Origin: Myxococcus stipitatus
GTDB taxonomy: Bacteria; Myxococcota; Myxococcia; Myxococcales; Myxococcaceae
DNA length: 64,000 bases
NCBI RefSeq assembly: GCF_021412625.1
Contig: NZ_JAKCFI010000003.1
Location: 434,001 to 498,000 of the forward strand
Direction of reading: 5' to 3'
Shown: positions 16,669 through 25,882 of the stretch, in pieces
How the letters are laid out: every line of letters begins with the position of its first letter
Numbering within the stretch: position 1 is the first letter of the stretch
Position numbers and translations under genes: made by a program
Notes under the pieces: model-generated
The model's database searches: none
What the model was told of the DNA's origin: nothing
Seen by the model: only the letters and a program-made list of their open reading frames with translations

Positions 16669-19600
16669 TCAGCGCGAGGCCACGTCGAGGGTCCGCCACG
16701 TGGCCGGGATGGCCCGGGACACCTCGCCCGTCGCCGGGACCTCCAGCTCCTCGCGCAGGAACGTGCCCTCGCCGAAGACCAGCTTCCAGCCGAAGACGGT
16801 GTAGCGGCCGGGCGGGACGTCCTTGTAGACGACCTCCTCGCCCAGGGGCGAGGACTGGGGTTCGAGCGCCATGGTCGTCATCTGCCTCAAGCCCTCGGCG
16901 TCACGGGGCGCCCCCACCTCGCCGGAGACCAGCGCGAGGTAGACGCCCTTCATGGGCGCGCGCAGCTTCACGGTGGCGCCCCGCTGCGCCTCCTGGAAGG
17001 CGACGACCAAGACGCCCGTGGCGGGGACCTCGATGGTCTGGTCGTGGAAGACCGGAGTGTCCTCGTCGCCGTCCGGGGGCGAGGGGAGGAACGTCGCCCG
17101 GTAGCGCCCCGCGGGCATCCCGCGCACCTCGCCGCGCCCCTCGTCGAACTCCTCGTAGCGCTGCTCATGGCCCTGCGTGTCCAGGGCCGTGAGCCGGAGG
17201 GTGCCCGCCACCGGACGCCTGGCCCGGCTCGTCGCGCTGAACTGGAGCGTCGCTCCCGCGTCGAGCAGCACCCGCACCTTCGTCGTGCCAGGCGCGACCT
17301 CCAGCCGGGCCGGCAGGTAGCGGTCCTCCTGCGTCACCCGCAACGTGACCGGCCCCTCCTCCGAGGCGCTGATGGAGAACTGGCCCTGGGCATCCGTCTC
17401 CGAGGCGGACAGGAGCAGGGGGTCCTCGTCTGGCAACCCGAGGCGCGACTCGACGACGGCGACGAACGCGGAAGGAATGGGCGCGCCCGTGCGCAGGTCG
17501 AGGACGTGGCCGGTGATGACGCGGCTGGGGCTCAGGCGAATCACCCCCAGGTCGATGTCCGCGCGCGACGGGTCCGCCTGCGCCGCGCGCGCGACCGACG
17601 GGAAGCCGTCGACCTCGAACACCAGCGGCATGGGCGCGTCCATCGCGAGGACGGGATGGGAGAAGGTGCCGTCACTGGACGTCTGCTCCTGGCCGTTGAT
17701 GGAGAACGCGCGAGCAGGGGACCCATCCGGTAGCACCAGCGTCCCCTTCGCGTGGGAGCGGCGCTCCATCACCAGGGTCACCTCCTTCGCCTCGTCGAGG
17801 ACGACCTGGGGCCTCGAAATCGACTCGCTCGCCCCGTTGATGACAATCCGGGGCCGCTCCTCCAGGACCAGGATGCCGGTGGAGCGCTCCGGCAGGAACC
17901 AGTAGCCCTCCTTCTCGACGTCGAGGCGATACCGGCCCCGAGGCACCTTCCGGAGGTCGAAGCGCCCCGCCGTGTCGGTGTGGACGCCGCGCGGCGGGGA
18001 GTTGCCGCACGTCCTCACGTTTCGCGGCGCCCAGGGCTCCGGGGTGTCATGCATGAGGGTGGCCTGGACGGCGGCGTCCCTCACGGGCCTGCCCGAGTCG
18101 TCCACGACGGTGCCCTTCAAGGAGAGCTCCTGCTCCAGGCGCAGCTCGACCTTCGCCGTGGCCGTCCGCTCGACCGTCACCTCGTGCGTGGACTGCCGGT
18201 CCACTCCGTCCGTGTACTGGGTGGCCACCGCCATGTACCGCCCCGGCTTGATGCCCTGGCGGGTGACCTGTCCGCGCGCGTCGCTCCTGCCCAGGCGCAA
18301 CGCCTCGCCACGCTCGCCGCCCGGCGCGTCGGGGAGCGGCCAGAGGTCCACGAGGAAGCCGTCTCGCGGCAACCCGCGCTCGTCCACCACCGAGGCCACC
18401 ACGGTCGCCCCCATGTCGAGCCGCAGCTCCACGTCCCTCGAGGGCGCCGTGACGTCCTGGGACACCCCGACGAAGCGCTCGTCGTCGACGTGGACGGTGT
18501 AGCGGCCGGAGCGGGTCGCATCCAGGACGAAGGTGCCATCCGCCTTCGAGTACGTGTCCTCCTGAGGCTCGTACGCGTCGGTGTCCGTGTCCTCCTCCAT
18601 CTCCAGGCGGAGGTGGATGCCCTCCAGGGGCTGGCCCTGGGTGTCCATGACGCGACCGACGACGGAGCTGGCGCGGCGGAGCACGAAGTCCTGCGGCGGC
18701 ATGCCCCGCGTGAGCTTCCGCTCGTCACTCATCGCCTTGTCGAGATAGCCGGTCGCCTCCACGGTGAAGTCCCAGGTGCTGCCGTCCTCCACGGGGCCCA
18801 TCCGGTAGCGGCCATCCGCCGTGGTGCGCGCCTCCAGCTTCAGGTGGTACCGCTCGGAGCCGTGCGCCTGCACGAGCGCGCCGCCAATGGGGGCCCGCGC
18901 CGTGTCCAGCACGGTGCCCTCGACGAACAGGGCCGAGCCCAGCTCCAGGATGACGTCATCGGCGGGCGCGGAGCCCAGCTCCACGCGGGTGAGGGCGTAC
19001 TCGCCGTCCCGCTCCGCGCGCAGGGTGTAGGTCCCCTCGGCCAGCTCGAAGGAGAAGCGGCCCTGCTCATCCGTCGCGCGGCTGAACACGCGGGGCTGGT
19101 GCTGCGCGTCCTGTCTCGCGGTCACCTCCAGCCCGGCCACGGGCACTCCCTGGGAGAGCACCCGCCCGGCGAGCCGGTGGGGACGCTCCAGCTTGAACTC
19201 CTGTTCGCGCCCGCTGCGCGACGCGGACGTGAGCAGCGGCAGCCAGCCGTCGTGGGTGATGAAGACCAGGGTGTCGCTGGAGGGCAGTGGCCCCAGCTCG
19301 AACCGCCCCTGGGCGTCGGTGCTCGTGTCGAAGAAGCGGGTGTGGAGGACGGGCACGTACGTCACCCGCGCGTCGGGCAGGGGAGCGCCGTCTCCCAGGA
19401 CCACGCCGCGCATGGAGGGTGCCTCGGACATCGTCACCTCCACGTCCTGGCTGCCCGCGGGGACTCCCAGGCGCGTGCCCGCGTGGCGCTCGCCCAGCGC
19501 CCAGAGGGTATGCGGCCCCTCGGGCAGGCCCTCCAGCGTGAACGTGCCATCCGCCGCGGACGTCGTCTCCGCGTGCACCGGCGCCTCGCCCTGGCGCGCG

Positions 19601-19995
19601 GCGAGCATCTCCACGACGATGTCCTCGCCGCGGGGCAGACAGGCCAGCAGCGTGAGGTCCGGCTTCGGCGCGCTCGACAAGCGCTCGGACGCGGACCACA
19701 GCTCGGGGGGGCACGGCAGCTCCGACAGCGTCTCACCGACGATGGGCCAGGAGGCGGAGATGCGCGCGCCCGCGACGGGGCGGCCCCGCTCGTCCACCGC
19801 GACGCCCCGGATGGAGCGCCCTCCGCCGGGCACGTCCGCGCGAAGAGGGGGCGTGGTCCTCGTCATCCAGGCGACAGGCGCCCGCGCCGCCGCGCCGTGC
19901 GTGTCGGCCTCCGAGGAGCCCAGCTCCCGGAGCAACCCCATCCCCAGGAGCGCGACCGCTCCCACGACGACGCACACTCCGAGGGTCTTGCGCAT
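16669..19995 (-). CDS. Large envelope protein of carboxypeptidase-regulatory-like domains
   Basis: A 1,108-residue member of the same family, separated from the other four copies by the yhaON-like pair. The start (MRKTLGVCVVVG) closely resembles that of the copy at 5001 (MRKALGASVGVG), suggesting these two are the closest pair. The hydrophobic helix spans about residues 5-22. Repeated beta-sandwich units follow, with the first containing GVAVDERGRPVAGARI and then TLSELPCP, the conserved Cys motif. Asp/Glu-rich turns such as DTDTDAYEPQEDTYS are specific to this copy. No enzyme active site is visible. Probably exported and structural. Confidence 0.85.
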   Translation of the reverse strand: MRKTLGVCVVVGAVALLGMGLLRELGSSEADTHGAAARAPVAWMTRTTPPLRADVPGGGRSIRGVAVDERGRPVAGARISASWPIVGETLSELPCPPELWSASERLSSAPKPDLTLLACLPRGEDIVVEMLAARQGEAPVHAETTSAADGTFTLEGLPEGPHTLWALGERHAGTRLGVPAGSQDVEVTMSEAPSMRGVVLGDGAPLPDARVTYVPVLHTRFFDTSTDAQGRFELGPLPSSDTLVFITHDGWLPLLTSASRSGREQEFKLERPHRLAGRVLSQGVPVAGLEVTARQDAQHQPRVFSRATDEQGRFSFELAEGTYTLRAERDGEYALTRVELGSAPADDVILELGSALFVEGTVLDTARAPIGGALVQAHGSERYHLKLEARTTADGRYRMGPVEDGSTWDFTVEATGYLDKAMSDERKLTRGMPPQDFVLRRASSVVGRVMDTQGQPLEGIHLRLEMEEDTDTDAYEPQEDTYSKADGTFVLDATRSGRYTVHVDDERFVGVSQDVTAPSRDVELRLDMGATVVASVVDERGLPRDGFLVDLWPLPDAPGGERGEALRLGRSDARGQVTRQGIKPGRYMAVATQYTDGVDRQSTHEVTVERTATAKVELRLEQELSLKGTVVDDSGRPVRDAAVQATLMHDTPEPWAPRNVRTCGNSPPRGVHTDTAGRFDLRKVPRGRYRLDVEKEGYWFLPERSTGILVLEERPRIVINGASESISRPQVVLDEAKEVTLVMERRSHAKGTLVLPDGSPARAFSINGQEQTSSDGTFSHPVLAMDAPMPLVFEVDGFPSVARAAQADPSRADIDLGVIRLSPSRVITGHVLDLRTGAPIPSAFVAVVESRLGLPDEDPLLLSASETDAQGQFSISASEEGPVTLRVTQEDRYLPARLEVAPGTTKVRVLLDAGATLQFSATSRARRPVAGTLRLTALDTQGHEQRYEEFDEGRGEVRGMPAGRYRATFLPSPPDGDEDTPVFHDQTIEVPATGVLVVAFQEAQRGATVKLRAPMKGVYLALVSGEVGAPRDAEGLRQMTTMALEPQSSPLGEEVVYKDVPPGRYTVFGWKLVFGEGTFLREELEVPATGEVSRAIPATWRTLDVASR

Positions 19996-20416: not shown

Positions 20417-21277
20417 TCACGTCTCACGGCGCAGCACGAGCAGGCCGTACTCCAGGCCCCCATCCATCAGCGCCTGCTGGAGGCGCAGGTGCTCGCGGCT
20501 CGACTCGCCCCGCACGTGGCCGGGTGGGCCCATGCCGCCTGTCCGCTCGTGCGACATCAGCTCCAGCGTGAGCGACCAGAAGCCCACCACCCGCGAGGAC
20601 AGGTCGTCGCGCGACTCCAGCTCCAGGCCCGCGGCCTGCGCGGTGGACAGGTATTCGTGCAGCGTGCCGACGCGCGTGCGCCAGTACCGGTCGAACGGCG
20701 CGGCCAGCTCCGGACGCCTGACGAAGCAGTCGGCCACGAGCGCCACGCCCCCGGGCCGCAAGAGCGCGCGCACCCGGCGGAACCACTCCGCGCGGGGCAG
20801 GTAGCTGCTGCTCTCCAGCGCCACCACCGCGTCGAAGCACGCGCGGCCCGGCACCGCGAGCGCGTCGCAGCGCAGCACCTTCACCCGCGCGCCCACGCCC
20901 TCGATTTCGGCGAAGGTGCGCACCAGCTCCACATGTGACGCGACGTTGGTCACCGCCGTCACGTGGGCCCGGTGCTCGGAGGCCCAGTACAGGCTGCCGC
21001 CGCCCAGGCCACAGCCCACGTCGAGCACGTCGCCCCCGTCCGGGAAGCGCCCCGCCGCGCGCGCCAGCTCCGCCAGGAGGGCCTCCTGCGCGGCGTGGAT
21101 GTGCTCGCGCAGCAGCGGCTCCGACGCCCCGGGCGGAGGCAGGCCGTCCACCAGGCCGACGTGGAAGTGCACCCGGGGCCCCGGGCCGTAGCGGCGCAGG
21201 ATGCGCTCCGTCTTCTCCTCGTAATAGGCGACGACGTCGTCCTGACGGACCTCGCGTCGCGACAGCTCCCCCCTCAT
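20417..21277 (-). CDS. Class I SAM-dependent methyltransferase, last gene of a terpenoid-like operon
   Basis: A 286-residue methyltransferase. Motif I is VLDVGCGLGGGS, followed by the acidic loop and post-motif FDAVVALESSSYL and LRPGGVALVAD. The N-terminus contains YYEEKTERILRRYGPGPRVH, which resembles small-molecule C-/O-methyltransferases of the sterol/tocopherol/prenyl type. Its start overlaps the stop of the polyprenyl-synthase-like gene (ATGA), so the two are coupled. From that context I infer that the substrate is an isoprenoid diphosphate or its product, but this is inference; residues alone do not define the acceptor. Confidence 0.8.
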   Translation of the reverse strand: MRGELSRREVRQDDVVAYYEEKTERILRRYGPGPRVHFHVGLVDGLPPPGASEPLLREHIHAAQEALLAELARAAGRFPDGGDVLDVGCGLGGGSLYWASEHRAHVTAVTNVASHVELVRTFAEIEGVGARVKVLRCDALAVPGRACFDAVVALESSSYLPRAEWFRRVRALLRPGGVALVADCFVRRPELAAPFDRYWRTRVGTLHEYLSTAQAAGLELESRDDLSSRVVGFWSLTLELMSHERTGGMGPPGHVRGESSREHLRLQQALMDGGLEYGLLVLRRET

Positions 21278-22011
21278 GACGGCACCTCCGGCAATATCGG
21301 CTCGATGCGGCGCAGGGCCGCGTCCAGGCAGCGCAGGTCCCACGCGCGCAGCGCGTCCGCGGCCGAGCGCGCCCAGGCCACCACCGCGTCCTGGTCTCCG
21401 GGTGGCAACGTGGTGAAGCGCGCGTCCCGGGTGCGGATGTCCTCCGCGACGTGCGCGGCCACGCCCAGCGCCTGCCCCACCGCCACCGCGCGCCCCTCCA
21501 GCCGCGTGTCCGCCCACAGCACGCGCAGGTACGCGGCCCACTGGAGCCCGGCGATGCCCTCCGCCACGCGGCGGTACACCGGCGCCGTCCACTCGCGCAC
21601 GCGCACCTCCTGCGCCTGGGGGCCGGCGGCCACGGACAACAGGCGCGCGCCCTCGGCCAGCGCGACCATGGGCACGCGCGCCGCGGGCTCGGCCAGCGTG
21701 GCGTAGGCCAGGTTCTGCAGGAGGAACTGCACGCACGGCCCGTCGCGCCGCGGGGAGGCGTAGTACGTGCAGTCGCCATCGATGAGGTCGTCGGCGAGGT
21801 TGCCCGCGCAGAAGCTGAAGAACAGGCCCACGCCGCGCGCCACCAGCACGCCGCGCTCCAGGCCCGCCTCCGCCCCCGCCTCGTAGAACAGCGGCAGGGG
21901 GCCGGGCTGGGCCTCCTCCATCGCGGTGAGCACGTCCCGCTCCGACACGTCCGGCAGCTCCAGCCGCCGCAGCGCGCGCAGCGCTTCCTGGTACAGGGCT
22001 CCGCCGCTCAT
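21274..22011 (-). CDS. Polyprenyl-synthase-like (trans-isoprenyl diphosphate synthase fold) protein
   Basis: A short 245-residue all-alpha protein. It has a DDLID motif (Asp74, Asp75, Asp78) at the position of the first Asp-rich motif. A second acidic site, AEDIRTRD (190-196), is preceded by ALGVAAHV, like the G-x-A-F-Q-x-x-D-D region of prenyltransferases. The usual length is nearer 300, and the conserved Lys/Arg residues that bind isopentenyl diphosphate are not clear. It may therefore be a terpene cyclase-like or degenerate synthase. It overlaps both neighbours by 4 bp (ATGA), between a histidine kinase and a methyltransferase. Confidence 0.65.
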   Translation of the reverse strand: MSGGALYQEALRALRRLELPDVSERDVLTAMEEAQPGPLPLFYEAGAEAGLERGVLVARGVGLFFSFCAGNLADDLIDGDCTYYASPRRDGPCVQFLLQNLAYATLAEPAARVPMVALAEGARLLSVAAGPQAQEVRVREWTAPVYRRVAEGIAGLQWAAYLRVLWADTRLEGRAVAVGQALGVAAHVAEDIRTRDARFTTLPPGDQDAVVAWARSAADALRAWDLRCLDAALRRIEPILPEVPS

Positions 22012-23372
22012 GGGTACTCCCGTGGCAGGACCAGCCGCAGCAGGGCCCCGCCGTCCGTCATGTTCTCGCGCTGGAGCACGCCGCCGCTGGCGCGCAGCAG
22101 GCACTCGCTCGTGTACAGGCCCAGGCCCATGCCGTCCGACTTGGACGAGGCCAGCGCCTGGGCGGAGCCGTCGAGCAGCGCGGGCGGGAAGCCCGGGCCG
22201 TCGTCGGTGATGACCACCTCCAACCGCCCGCTGAGCGGCTCCACGCGGGCCACCACGGACACGCGCGTGGCGCCCCGCGCCCCGTCCCCCTCGCACGCGT
22301 TGAGCACCAGGTTCTCCAGCACCCGGCGCAGCGTGGTGGGGCCGCCGCGCATGCGCGCGCGCAGGGGCGAAGGGCTCGTCTCCAGCTCCACGCGGATGTC
22401 CACGTCCGGGTAGCGCAGGCCCACGCTGGCGCGCACCGTCTCCAGGAGCGGCCCCACCTCCACCGCCTCCGGCTCCGTGCCCACGTGGCGCCGGCCCTTC
22501 GCGTGGATCTCCGCCACCCCGTCGCGGATGCGGCGCAGGCTCTCCTGGAGCGTCTTGAGCAGCGCCTCCAGCTCCTGCCCCCCGGGCCCCAGCCTTCGCG
22601 AGCCCACGCCCAGCACGGTGAGCATGTCCGCCGCGCCGCCAGCGGTCATCAGCGCGCTGTCCAGCTCGTGCTGGGAGCCGAGGATTTCGCCGAGCGCCCG
22701 CGACAGCCGGCCCACGTCCTGCTCCTGCTGGTCCAGCAGCTGGGCCTGCACGGCGGCGCGCAGCCGCGCGGCCTCCGCCCGGGCGCGGTCGTGCTGCACC
22801 GCGAAGGTGCCCAGGTACAGCTCCGCGGTGAGGGCCGCCGGGCCGATGACGCCGAAGAGGACGAGGTGGTCCTCGCTCTCGCGCAGGGGCAGCGCGGCCA
22901 GCAGCGCCGCGGCCGTGCCCACCGCGAGGAAGGGCGTGCGCGGCGTCACCCGGTGCAGCCGGCCATGGAAGGCGGTGGTGAACAGGAGCAGGGACGCGAT
23001 GAGGGTGGCGCCCTGCAACTCCGACAGCGCCATCAGCGAGGCGAGGAAGAAGTGCAGGGCCGTCACGCCCAGCACCAGCCACACCCAGCCCCACGTCTCC
23101 AGGTGGCGGCGCCCCCGGTGGAGCAGCGAGAAGGCCAGCCCGCTGCCCAGCATGGGGGCCGCGCACGCCAGGCCCAGGCCGAAGGGCACGCCGAACACGA
23201 CGCGCGCGCCCGGGGCCCACGCGGCGGCGGCGAGCAGGCACACCACCAGCAGCGTGAGCACGCACCAGGGCCCCACGCCCGCGGCGGCGAGCACCTCCGC
23301 GGTGTCCTGGGCCCGCGTCCAGCGCCGGAAGGACGCCGTCAGGGCCGCGCGTCCTCCCCCCGCGCCGCTCAT
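22008..23372 (-). CDS. Six-TM sensor histidine kinase within the terpenoid-like operon
   Basis: A 454-residue membrane histidine kinase. Six hydrophobic segments occupy about residues 35-190 and there is no periplasmic domain, so it may sense a lipophilic ligand or membrane state. The dimerisation region contains LGSQHELDS with candidate phospho-acceptor His235, although the usual H-E-L-R-x-P-L is altered to HELDSAL. The ATPase domain is complete: N-box LENLVLNACEG, G1 DDGPGF and G2 DGMGLGLYTSE. No response regulator is adjacent. The start at 23372 overlaps the preceding gene and the stop overlaps the next, so it is co-translated with the biosynthetic-looking genes. Confidence 0.85.
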   Translation of the reverse strand: MSGAGGGRAALTASFRRWTRAQDTAEVLAAAGVGPWCVLTLLVVCLLAAAAWAPGARVVFGVPFGLGLACAAPMLGSGLAFSLLHRGRRHLETWGWVWLVLGVTALHFFLASLMALSELQGATLIASLLLFTTAFHGRLHRVTPRTPFLAVGTAAALLAALPLRESEDHLVLFGVIGPAALTAELYLGTFAVQHDRARAEAARLRAAVQAQLLDQQEQDVGRLSRALGEILGSQHELDSALMTAGGAADMLTVLGVGSRRLGPGGQELEALLKTLQESLRRIRDGVAEIHAKGRRHVGTEPEAVEVGPLLETVRASVGLRYPDVDIRVELETSPSPLRARMRGGPTTLRRVLENLVLNACEGDGARGATRVSVVARVEPLSGRLEVVITDDGPGFPPALLDGSAQALASSKSDGMGLGLYTSECLLRASGGVLQRENMTDGGALLRLVLPREYP

Positions 23373-23710
23373 ACGGTGGTGGTCAGCGTGAAGGTCGCGA
23401 GCGCCTGCAGCTGGTTGACCTCCCGCGTGGCCTCCTCGACGCGCGCGCCCAGCTCCTGGACGACGGCGGGCAGGCCGCGGCGTGTCACGCGCACCTCCAC
23501 CTCGCCGCCCGCCAGCAGGTGGTGCAGCGCCTCGAGGACCGGCGCCAGCGCGGGGTTGAGGCCCACCGCGCCGCCGGGCCCCTCCACCGCGCCCAGCTCC
23601 TGGAGCCTGCGCAGGTAGCCCTCCACGGCGCGGGCCAGGGGGACGTCGACGAGGTGGGGGACGCGGAGGTCCTGCTCGGTGTCGGTGGGGGCGTTGACGG
23701 ACCCGCTCAT
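23369..23710 (-). CDS. Hypothetical protein, first gene of the four-gene operon
   Basis: A 113-residue soluble protein beginning at 23710 (MSGSVNAPTDTEQD); longer upstream frame is Arg/Pro-rich and unlikely to be coding. A predicted helical middle (RAVEGYLRRLQELGAV) is followed by a Leu-rich helix and a beta-strand segment (EVEVRVTRR), then a helix ending ATFTLTTTV. I do not recognise the family. Its stop overlaps the kinase start (ATGA), so it may modulate or partner the kinase, but this is inference from position only. Confidence 0.65.
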   Translation of the reverse strand: MSGSVNAPTDTEQDLRVPHLVDVPLARAVEGYLRRLQELGAVEGPGGAVGLNPALAPVLEALHHLLAGGEVEVRVTRRGLPAVVQELGARVEEATREVNQLQALATFTLTTTV

Positions 23711-24056: not shown

Positions 24057-24956
24057 ATGGCCAGGGTCAGACAGGTGAGCGAGCGCGAGGCGACCGGCGC
24101 GGTCGAGCGCGTCTACCACGAGGTGCGGCGGACGATGCGCGTGACGGGGGTGGACGTGTCCCTGCGCACGTGGGCCGCCTTCCCGCGCTTCTTCGTCGCG
24201 ATGTGGGAGGCGATGGGTCCCAACGTGGAGACGCGGGCCTTCGAGGAGTCCGGGCAGGCGCTGTGGGGAGAGACGCTGGAGTCGACGGTGGGCTGGGAGG
24301 TGCTGGGCGCGTGGGAGACGGCGGACCTGGGACCCAGCCAGCGCTTCCACGCGCGCGGCATCCTGGAGCTGTACGAGGCGATGCAGCCCCGGGTGGCGTT
24401 GATGGTGGCGGCGGTGCGGCTGGCGTTGCGCGGCGAGCCGGTGGGGCGCGGCGGACCGCCGGGGACGGTGGAGCGGTTGGAGCGCGGCGCGCTGCCGCGC
24501 ATGGCGGCGATGGAGTGGGCGCCGGAGCGTCCGCCGGACGCGCGGCTGCGCGCGCTGTTCTCGGACATCGTGAAGCGGGTGGGGCCTCCGGGGGTGCCTG
24601 GGGAGTACCGCGCGCTGGCGTGCTGGCCGGAGTACCTGGAGTCGGTGTGGAGCCGGCTGGGGCCGGTGATGCGGGACCCCGGGTACGCGCGGGCCGTGGA
24701 GGGCGTGCGCGAGTCGATGCGGCGGCGCGCGCGGTCGCTGCCGTACGTCGTGGGGCTGAGCCGGGCGCGGGTGGCGTCGCTGGGCGAGGACGCGGACGCG
24801 GTGCTGCGGTTGACGGACGCGCTGGAGGCGCGGCTGCCGGGGCTGCTGTTGAACCTGGCGCTGATGGTGCAGGACGTGCCGGACATCCTGAGGCAGCCCA
24901 TCCCGGGGGCATCCCGGCTGGTGCCGGACTGGGTGGCCGCCAAGGAGCTGCGATGA
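24057..24956 (+). CDS. DehI-family (2-haloacid dehalogenase-like) protein
   Basis: A 299-residue protein that resembles DehI, the cofactor-free dehalogenase that uses an activated water on both enantiomers of 2-haloacids. The length is right, and the two-fold internal repeat of that family shows in the blocks FPRFFVAMWEAMGPNVETR (43-61) and WPEYLESVWSRLGPVMRDP (190-208). From memory, the catalytic Asp of DehI lies in a short S-D-Y segment before the second block; here that segment reads PGEY, with Glu183. If my alignment is right, activity may be altered or lost. The stop overlaps the start of the next gene (ATGA). Confidence 0.65.
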   Translation: MARVRQVSEREATGAVERVYHEVRRTMRVTGVDVSLRTWAAFPRFFVAMWEAMGPNVETRAFEESGQALWGETLESTVGWEVLGAWETADLGPSQRFHARGILELYEAMQPRVALMVAAVRLALRGEPVGRGGPPGTVERLERGALPRMAAMEWAPERPPDARLRALFSDIVKRVGPPGVPGEYRALACWPEYLESVWSRLGPVMRDPGYARAVEGVRESMRRRARSLPYVVGLSRARVASLGEDADAVLRLTDALEARLPGLLLNLALMVQDVPDILRQPIPGASRLVPDWVAAKELR

Positions 24957-25882
24957 ACTGGCGAGAGTGGCAGCGCGAGCAGCAGGTGGCGGAGCTGGGG
25001 GACCGGTTCCTGAGCTACGTGGACCTGGGCAACGGGCCGCCGGTGGTGCTGCTGCACGGCATCCCCACGTGGGGCTACGTGTGGAGCGGACTGGCGGCGG
25101 GGTTGGCGGTGAGGAACCGGGTGCTGGTGCCGGACCTGCTGGGGTACGGGTTCTCGGACCGGCGGGACGTCTTCGACCGCTCGGTGGGGCGGCAGGCGGA
25201 GGCGCTGGACGCGTGGATGGATCGGCTGGGCATCGTCGACGCGCTGGTGGTGGGGCACGACGTGGGGGGCGGCGTGGCGCAGCACCTGGCGGTGCGGTTC
25301 CCCCAGCGGGTGGGGCGGCTGTGCCTGGTGGACAGCATCTGTTACGACGCGTGGCCGCTGAGCCTGATGTCGCTCCTGGGGACGCCGGCGGTGACGCGGC
25401 GGCTGTCGACGGAGCGGGTGGGGCGGCTGTTGCGGCTGGCGCTGCGGTGGAAGGGCTTCGAGACGGCGCCGCCGGACGGGCTGTTGGAGGGGCTGCTCGC
25501 GCCGTATGCGACGGAGGTGGGGTTGGTGTCGCTGGTGCGCGACGCGGTGGCGCTGAACACCAACCAGACGCGGGAGCTGGCGCCCAGGCTGGGACACGTG
25601 AGCGTGCCGACGCTGCTGTTGTGGGGCGAGGAGGACGGGTTGTTGCCGACGCGGTATGGCGAGCGGCTGGCGTGGGACATCCCCGGGGCGCGGCTGGTGC
25701 AGGTGCCGGACGCGCGGCACTTCGTGATGTGGGACGCGCCGCACGCGGTGGCGATGGAGTTGTTCCGGTTCCTGGAGCAGGAGGTGCCGGTGGTGGGCGG
25801 ACAGGGGACGCGGACCTCTGTGCGGGTCGAGCGGGCGCGGACGGAGGTGCTGTTCGACAGCGACGCGCCCGTGCCCGCGTGA
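24953..25882 (+). CDS. Alpha/beta hydrolase with Asp nucleophile (haloalkane dehalogenase/epoxide hydrolase-like)
   Basis: A 309-residue alpha/beta-hydrolase-fold enzyme. The oxyanion segment is LLHGIPTWGYVW (33-44). The nucleophile elbow is VVGHDVGGG with Asp103 instead of Ser, which marks the haloalkane dehalogenase/epoxide hydrolase branch. The Trp that normally follows the Asp and helps bind halide is Val104. An acidic residue lies in WGEEDGLLP, and the catalytic His is in DARHFVMWD. The C-terminal 30 residues are an extra charged tail. It is coupled by an ATGA overlap to the DehI-like gene, so the two may act in one pathway on a halogenated or epoxide substrate. Confidence 0.8.
   Translation: MNWREWQREQQVAELGDRFLSYVDLGNGPPVVLLHGIPTWGYVWSGLAAGLAVRNRVLVPDLLGYGFSDRRDVFDRSVGRQAEALDAWMDRLGIVDALVVGHDVGGGVAQHLAVRFPQRVGRLCLVDSICYDAWPLSLMSLLGTPAVTRRLSTERVGRLLRLALRWKGFETAPPDGLLEGLLAPYATEVGLVSLVRDAVALNTNQTRELAPRLGHVSVPTLLLWGEEDGLLPTRYGERLAWDIPGARLVQVPDARHFVMWDAPHAVAMELFRFLEQEVPVVGGQGTRTSVRVERARTEVLFDSDAPVPA

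Follow-up and report, generated by a model that had tools for sequence, protein, structure and literature searches.

A conserved overlapping gene set in Myxococcus encoding a membrane kinase, a protein of predicted isoprenyl-diphosphate-synthase fold and a relative of prenyl-diphosphate C-methyltransferases: a candidate non-canonical isoprenoid pathway

In this study, a set of four overlapping genes was analyzed in a 64,000-nucleotide stretch of the Myxococcus stipitatus genome (contig NZ_JAKCFI010000003.1, positions 434,001 to 498,000; hereafter the window). The original prediction described an operon at window positions 20417-23710, and all of its open reading frames (ORFs) were found there on the minus strand, in the order gene A (23369..23710; 113 aa, without family), a membrane sensor histidine kinase (22008..23372; 454 aa), a protein of predicted isoprenyl-diphosphate-synthase (IPPS) fold (21274..22011; 245 aa) and an S-adenosylmethionine (SAM) methyltransferase (20417..21277; 286 aa). 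All three junctions are ATGA overlaps, as had been predicted, and they recur in relatives: all 27 Myxococcus genomes share the kinase/IPPS overlap and 23 of them the A/kinase overlap; of 39 homologous IPPS/methyltransferase pairs, 37 overlap in this way and the other 2 are in-frame fusions. Because they are conserved in this way across Myxococcus genomes and homologous IPPS/methyltransferase pairs, the overlaps are not due to chance.

Sequence and profile searches with the 245-aa protein gave no significant match in Pfam (PF00348 included), NCBIfam or PDB. An AlphaFold (AF2) model based on the window protein together with 15 relatives had a pLDDT of 89.7 and a pTM of 0.88. Foldseek with this model returned 30 matches at E ≤0.001, and a farnesyl diphosphate (FPP) synthase, 4lls, was matched at E 7.5e-5 with a TM score of 0.70 by query length. 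VIA-align superposed the model on 4wk5 with Z 23.6 and an rmsd of 2.6 over 232 residues; its top 16 rows had Z ≥22.0 and were nearly all FPP or geranylgeranyl diphosphate (GGPP) synthases or their relatives. As modelled, the protein is of the all-alpha trans-isoprenyl-diphosphate-synthase (trans-IDS) fold, which bears out the IPPS fold proposed at the outset; the fold alone shows no function.

The DDxxD motif claimed for this protein was also recovered. Its first Asp-rich motif, D74-D75-L-I-D78 (21778..21792, minus strand), has all three Asp residues conserved in each of the 46 family members from outside Citreicoccus, which also all keep D191, W141, Q157, Y161, R198 and W213; position 194 is S or T in the same 46 and D196 is present in 45. 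Both Citreicoccus members have lost DDxxD and carry Ala at positions 194 and 196, with D191 still there. The family was aligned with 5 PF00348 proteins of its own genome, one of which (L096) is cut and lacks an aligned N-terminal half. KxxRP was found in 3 of the 4 proteins with this half aligned, RRG after DDxxD in 4 of 4, and [FY]QxxDD in 5 of 5; in the same alignment, none of these three signatures occurred in the 245-aa family rows. Where canonical synthases have QxxDD, the family reads HVxEDI-x-[S/T]-x-D, and in the window the remodelled motif D191-I-R-[S/T]194-R-D196 (21424..21441, minus strand) replaces the canonical segment. Since these signatures for binding of isopentenyl diphosphate (IPP) are missing, the protein, judged by its residues, should not elongate chains with IPP. 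Class I terpene synthases combine DDxxD with an NSE triad, (N/D)DxxSxxxE; this triad was absent from the family, whose second site reads EDI-R-[S/T]-x-D-x-R, D191 and S/T194 only resembling it. A class-I ionising role would be the simplest reading of the protein, although its second metal site is not textbook.

The methyltransferase found its best PDB sequence matches in 9tb4, a C6-FPP methyltransferase (E 1.9e-53), and in BezA, a geranyl-diphosphate (GPP) C6-methyltransferase (7fbh, E 3.6e-52), with similarity spanning most of the chain. The next group of matches began at E 3.4e-16, and a GPP 2-C-methyltransferase was matched at E 2.3e-7. The methyltransferase domain of a fused homologue (see below) matched BezA at E 7.8e-62. 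SAM-binding motif I, GCGLG (residues 88-92; 21002..21016, minus strand), was located from the motif alignment of homologues. By hand count on the PDB-match alignment, E155 (20813..20815, minus strand) is aligned with BezA E170, which we take to be the catalytic base, and F195 (20693..20695, minus strand) with the BezA gate residue W210, which is Ile in 9tb4. Glu occupies the E155 position in 55 of 55 methyltransferase rows, decayed copies included, and F occupies position 195 in 37 of 37 intact homologues. The available text of a review states that the W210A change gives BezA activity on FPP (PMC10881772); with F195 at this place, the prenyl chain used here could be that of GPP or that of FPP. 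With specific similarity, an intact SAM motif and Glu at the place of BezA E170, the enzyme is by its sequence a clear relative of the C6-methylating prenyl-diphosphate methyltransferases. This membership in the prenyl-diphosphate C-methyltransferase group makes the methylated, non-canonical terpenoid route that had been suggested a plausible one.

Homologues were collected from 145 genomes of the order, which were grouped by genus; g1 is Myxococcus, g3 Archangium and g5 Citreicoccus, one g8 genome is Hyalangium, and g6 is presumably Corallococcus, although this is a guess. The 245-aa family was present in 48 of the 145 genomes, among them all 27 that belong to Myxococcus; the methyltransferase was present in 56 at E ≤1e-20 (55 in the cluster plus a distant partial match, G004), and the kinase in 60 at E ≤1e-60. 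The nearest named relative of the window is M. dinghuensis, with 91% identity for the 245-aa protein. Among 64 clusters, the complete set A-kinase-IPPS-methyltransferase was found in 35 (27 g1, 7 g8 and 1 g9), and 2 others contained A and the kinase together with an IPPS::methyltransferase fusion in one ORF (522 aa in g18, locus L039; 523 aa in g43, locus L047). In L039 the order is IPPS::methyltransferase, peroxidase, A and kinase, reordered yet still clustered. A-kinase-IPPS without the methyltransferase was observed in 7 clusters (6 g3 and 1 g20, the latter in a genome 86% complete), IPPS-methyltransferase without A or kinase in 2 (g5), and kinase-methyltransferase without A or IPPS in 16 (g6); in the remaining 2 (G141 and G142), the contig ends beside the IPPS gene. 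The homologues thus keep these genes together, with the full set in 35 clusters and a fused form in 2, rather than being scattered among unrelated neighbours. The sole addition from 195 genomes of the phylum, a profile match in a g6 genome (G061, E 6e-4), was rejected as an ordinary polyprenyl synthase, and at the sensitivity of this profile search g6 showed no relocated IPPS-like copy.

A collection of 84,980 species was also scanned with six short peptide patterns taken from a single protein, a search that detects close relatives only. It gave 15 loci, 14 in records named as myxobacteria and one in a record named Comamonas sp. KCTC 72670 (BNCN01000009.1). The latter contains the whole Myxococcus-type set, with an IPPS-like protein 72% identical, and a contig of equal length (427,423 bases) is present in G108, a genome grouped with Myxococcus; the record is probably a mislabelled or contaminated assembly.

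The state of the methyltransferase followed that of the IPPS-like gene. Its motifs were intact in 37 of 37 genomes having both a methyltransferase and a DDxxD-bearing IPPS, apart from small substitutions: G139 has R for K in YYxxKT and G-H for R-Y next to F195, and G093 has DDA for CDA. Where the IPPS was missing (16 g6) or without DDxxD (2 g5), 18 of 18 methyltransferases had lost YYxxKT together with the ExxxY Tyr, and motif I GCGLG was altered in the same 18, 6 of the 16 g6 copies still matching GxGxG. The reverse was not seen: the 7 genomes without a detected methyltransferase retain DDxxD in the IPPS. Because the methyltransferase decays without a DDxxD-bearing IPPS while DDxxD persists without the methyltransferase, the methyltransferase appears, from these motifs, to depend on the IPPS and not the converse. 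In an rpoB tree of 24 genomes, which included both g5 genomes and 4 of the 16 g6 genomes, g5 and g6 were sisters with a bootstrap of 100. Despite the lost catalytic residues, none of the 16 g6 genomes (L085-L094 and L102-L107) had an internal stop in its methyltransferase or kinase, and the kinase stop and methyltransferase start form an ATGA overlap in all 16. The median dN/dS of the methyltransferase was 0.58 in g6 vs 0.33 in g1, relaxed yet below 1; these and the other dN/dS values given here were obtained by the Nei-Gojobori method at very high GC3, without a housekeeping control gene, and are relative only. A non-catalytic function may have been kept in g6, where the kinase and methyltransferase could represent a conserved pseudo-enzyme pair.

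The kinase showed eight overlapping hydropathy segments above the cut-off before its core, merging into about 6 transmembrane (TM) spans, and a HATPase_c domain at residues 345-451 (PF02518, E 4e-14). Its N and G boxes are present; in several g8 genomes they are partly degenerate. H235 in SQHELDS (22668..22670, minus strand), the candidate phospho-acceptor, aligns with the H-box His (NHD/HHD) of relatives. This His was kept in 36 of 61 homologues and replaced by Gln, Glu or Asn in 25, including that of the closest relative, M. dinghuensis. It was kept in 22 of 27 g1, 6 of 6 g3, 4 of 16 g6 and none of 8 g8 and g9 members, and in the single members of g18, g20, g43 and g44. A six-TM kinase with an altered H-box had been predicted; the six spans agree with the analysis and the altered H-box is found in the 25 homologues, but the window kinase itself retains the His. 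In 7 of the 64 clusters (6 g3 and 1 g20), a 122-aa receiver domain (a weak Pfam match, E 0.012) follows a peroxidase gene, and all 7 copies lack Asp at the phospho-acceptor position, where Ala was read by hand. No adjacent receiver other than this one was found, the neighbours not having been scanned systematically for receivers. With the phospho-acceptor His lost in several lineages and the adjacent receiver lacking its Asp, the further suggestion that the kinase senses the product found no support, though it is possible. The two enzyme genes occur without the kinase in Citreicoccus, but there they are decayed.

Gene A had no family match in Pfam or NCBIfam, and its AF2 model was poor (pLDDT 55.6). 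The A protein of the window contains neither Trp nor Cys. The gene was present in 45 of the 64 clusters: it was absent from 18 of 18 without a DDxxD-bearing IPPS and present in 45 of the 46 with one, the exception being G141, in which the contig end cuts it. Its median dN/dS was 0.71 in Myxococcus and 0.12 in Archangium.

Several further genes adjoin the set. A homologue of DyP-type peroxidases lies beside A or IPPS in 14 of the 64 clusters, one of them, in Pyxidicoccus caerfyrddinensis (L075), being a mere decayed remnant; three homologues tested matched PF20628 at E 4.6e-23 to 2e-21. DyP peroxidases are marked by GxxDG and a heme His, and of 8 copies aligned, four (g3, g18 and g20) had GxxDG and the candidate heme His and four (g5 and g1) did not. 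In Archangium-type genomes (L041, L043, L037 and others), peroxidase and receiver precede the set upstream of gene A, and the window has neither gene; an ancestral set of six genes (A, kinase, IPPS, methyltransferase, peroxidase and receiver) is plausible. Divergent from gene A in the window, at 24057-25882, a gene for a DehI-family protein (PF10778, E 4e-16) and one for an alpha/beta hydrolase (E 3e-33) overlap by 4 bases. For Archangium, 5 of the 6 loci also have this pair beside the gene set, as does one g20 locus, and the pair may be linked to the set. Downstream, at 16669-19995, a 1108-aa protein with seven carboxypeptidase-regulatory-like stretches is encoded; 14 of the 19 Myxococcus loci that were compared have a similarly placed homologue, with 37-59% identity in the best segment.

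The explanation we favour, with a confidence only a little better than even, is that the gene set constitutes a small non-canonical isoprenoid pathway, composed of a prenyl-diphosphate C-methyltransferase and a class-I IPPS-fold enzyme, with a co-transcribed membrane kinase. Its product is probably an unusual methylated terpene-like molecule. The methyltransferase would C-methylate a prenyl diphosphate drawn from central metabolism (GPP or FPP), at C6 by homology, and the DDxxD/Mg site of the 245-aa protein would ionise the prenyl diphosphate, already methylated if the steps run in this order. The ionised prenyl group could then be released as a terpenoid or transferred to an acceptor. The kinase, if it signals, would most likely couple the pathway, through its expression or its activity, to a cue from the membrane or from isoprenoids, and would act by phosphotransfer only in lineages keeping the His. 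Coupling of the IPPS-like enzyme and the methyltransferase is argued for by the one-ORF fusions, the clustering that persists despite reordering in L039, and the co-decay.

Several observations weigh against this explanation. The second metal motif of the 245-aa protein is neither a canonical second Asp-rich motif (SARM) nor a canonical NSE triad, so that catalysis is not assured. Both fusions come from outlying draft genomes, assembled in 910 and 260 contigs, and assembly error is possible. Since g5 and g6 are sisters, the 18 co-decay genomes form one clade and represent one or two events, not 18. In six Archangium genomes and in the 86%-complete one, A-kinase-IPPS is kept but no methyltransferase was detected; because the three genes persist in these 7, the system can do without methylation. 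Finally, loss of the phospho-acceptor His in 25 of 61 kinase homologues makes a signalling role uncertain.

The main rival, which we regard as unlikely, is that the IPPS-fold protein is a prenyltransferase acting on an acceptor, possibly the gene A product or a small molecule, in the manner of ComQ, PalQ and Ord1 or of MoeN5, the prenylated product being sensed by the kinase as in ComQXP. According to the available text of one paper, trans-IDS-like prenyltransferases retain the first Asp-rich motif (FARM) and repurpose the SARM, and the Trp-specific ones (ComQ, PalQ and Ord1) have a conserved Gln just upstream of the SARM (PMC13290415). The 245-aa family likewise has its FARM kept and its SARM altered, and Foldseek matched its model to MoeN5 (6j8v, E 2.8e-3, TM 0.73/0.70) and Ord1 (9v4j); at the place of that Gln, however, it has His187 in 44 of 46 members (Tyr in 1 and Gln in 1). 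The distribution of gene A, present in 45 clusters and missing from all 18 without a DDxxD-bearing IPPS, would suit an acceptor, as would the at least two separate losses needed in g6, since A and IPPS would have flanked the kinase on opposite sides. Opposed to this are the absence of Trp and Cys from the window's A protein, for which reason a ComX-like prenyl acceptor is kept as a rival only, and the fast variation of A in Myxococcus, although its dN/dS is the lower one, 0.12, in Archangium. A bolder proposal, doubtful and placed below both this rival and the regulatory-subunit rival considered next, is that of a new isoprenoid autoinducer system of Myxococcaceae, in which a trans-IDS-derived terpene synthase, fused or coupled to a C6-prenyl-diphosphate methyltransferase, would make a C11 or C16 homoterpenoid sensed by the co-transcribed six-TM kinase, with dialects (methylated in Myxococcus, unmethylated in Archangium) and pseudo-enzyme decay in g6.

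The IPPS-fold protein and the methyltransferase might instead descend from enzymes but serve the kinase as sensing or regulatory subunits that bind prenyl diphosphates or SAM, with no biosynthetic role; this seems improbable, and we rank it under the prenyltransferase. The g6 genomes speak for it, their kinase and methyltransferase being free of internal stops in 16 of 16 and joined by the same ATGA overlap with the catalytic motifs lost, and so do the repeated loss of the kinase His and the receiver without its phospho-acceptor Asp in 7 of 7. A pure scaffold, however, would not need the DDxxD kept in 46 of 46 members and the methyltransferase motifs kept in 37 of 37 outside the Citreicoccus/g6 clade, and the in-frame fusion joins two domains with intact catalytic motifs. 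Least probable of all, and very unlikely, is a methyltransferase whose substrate is not a prenyl diphosphate within a coincidental but stable operon. Homology fixes the family of this enzyme, not its substrate, and Archangium manages without it; nevertheless, its similarity to C6-prenyl-diphosphate methyltransferases is far above that to other SAM enzymes, and both the fusion and its co-decay with the IPPS-like gene are at odds with coincidence.

All 27 Myxococcus genomes examined thus contain an IPPS-fold family that has no match in Pfam or NCBIfam and is coupled to a prenyl-diphosphate C-methyltransferase; among the members of this genus is a social bacterium that has been studied intensively. 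Should the 245-aa protein prove active, it would count as a bacterial enzyme derived from the trans-IDS fold, either a terpene synthase or a prenyltransferase, and the gene set would be a source of methylated terpenoids missed by the profile libraries used here. The pattern of gene loss provides a ready test set of natural variants. No published description of the gene set or its like was found in a literature search that left most subscription journals outside its reach.

Compared with known systems, the methyltransferase resembles BezA and the 9tb4 enzyme in its similarity (E ~1e-52), the Glu equivalent to E170 and an ESSxY segment; it is unlike them in having F195 at the gate, a kinase in the operon and, in two lineages, a fusion to an IPPS fold. 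The 245-aa protein shares with canonical trans-IDS proteins (PF00348) the predicted fold over nearly the whole chain and the first Asp-rich motif, and differs from them in lacking KxxRP, RRG, [FY]QxxDD and a PF00348 match. Autoinducer systems that combine a synthase with a membrane kinase include ComQXP, CqsA/CqsS, RpfF/RpfC and PhcB/PhcS. The present set is like the ComQXP type in that genes for small-molecule enzymes adjoin a multi-TM kinase; unlike that type, no functional receiver was found beside it, the kinase His is often lost and the ComQ-type Gln is absent. A prenyl-diphosphate methyltransferase stands with a terpene synthase in the sodorifen-type gene arrangement. The same pairing is described for 2-methylisoborneol in the available text of PMC10881772, and for C17 terpenes derived from FPP in that of PMC13022886. 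The logic of pairing a C-methyltransferase with a terpene synthase is shared with the 2-methylisoborneol and sodorifen pathways, whereas the partner here is a protein of 245 aa with a trans-IDS fold and without a terpene-synthase Pfam match. The points of difference from the known pathways of methyltransferase and terpene synthase are the family of the partner enzyme, the fusion and the kinase.

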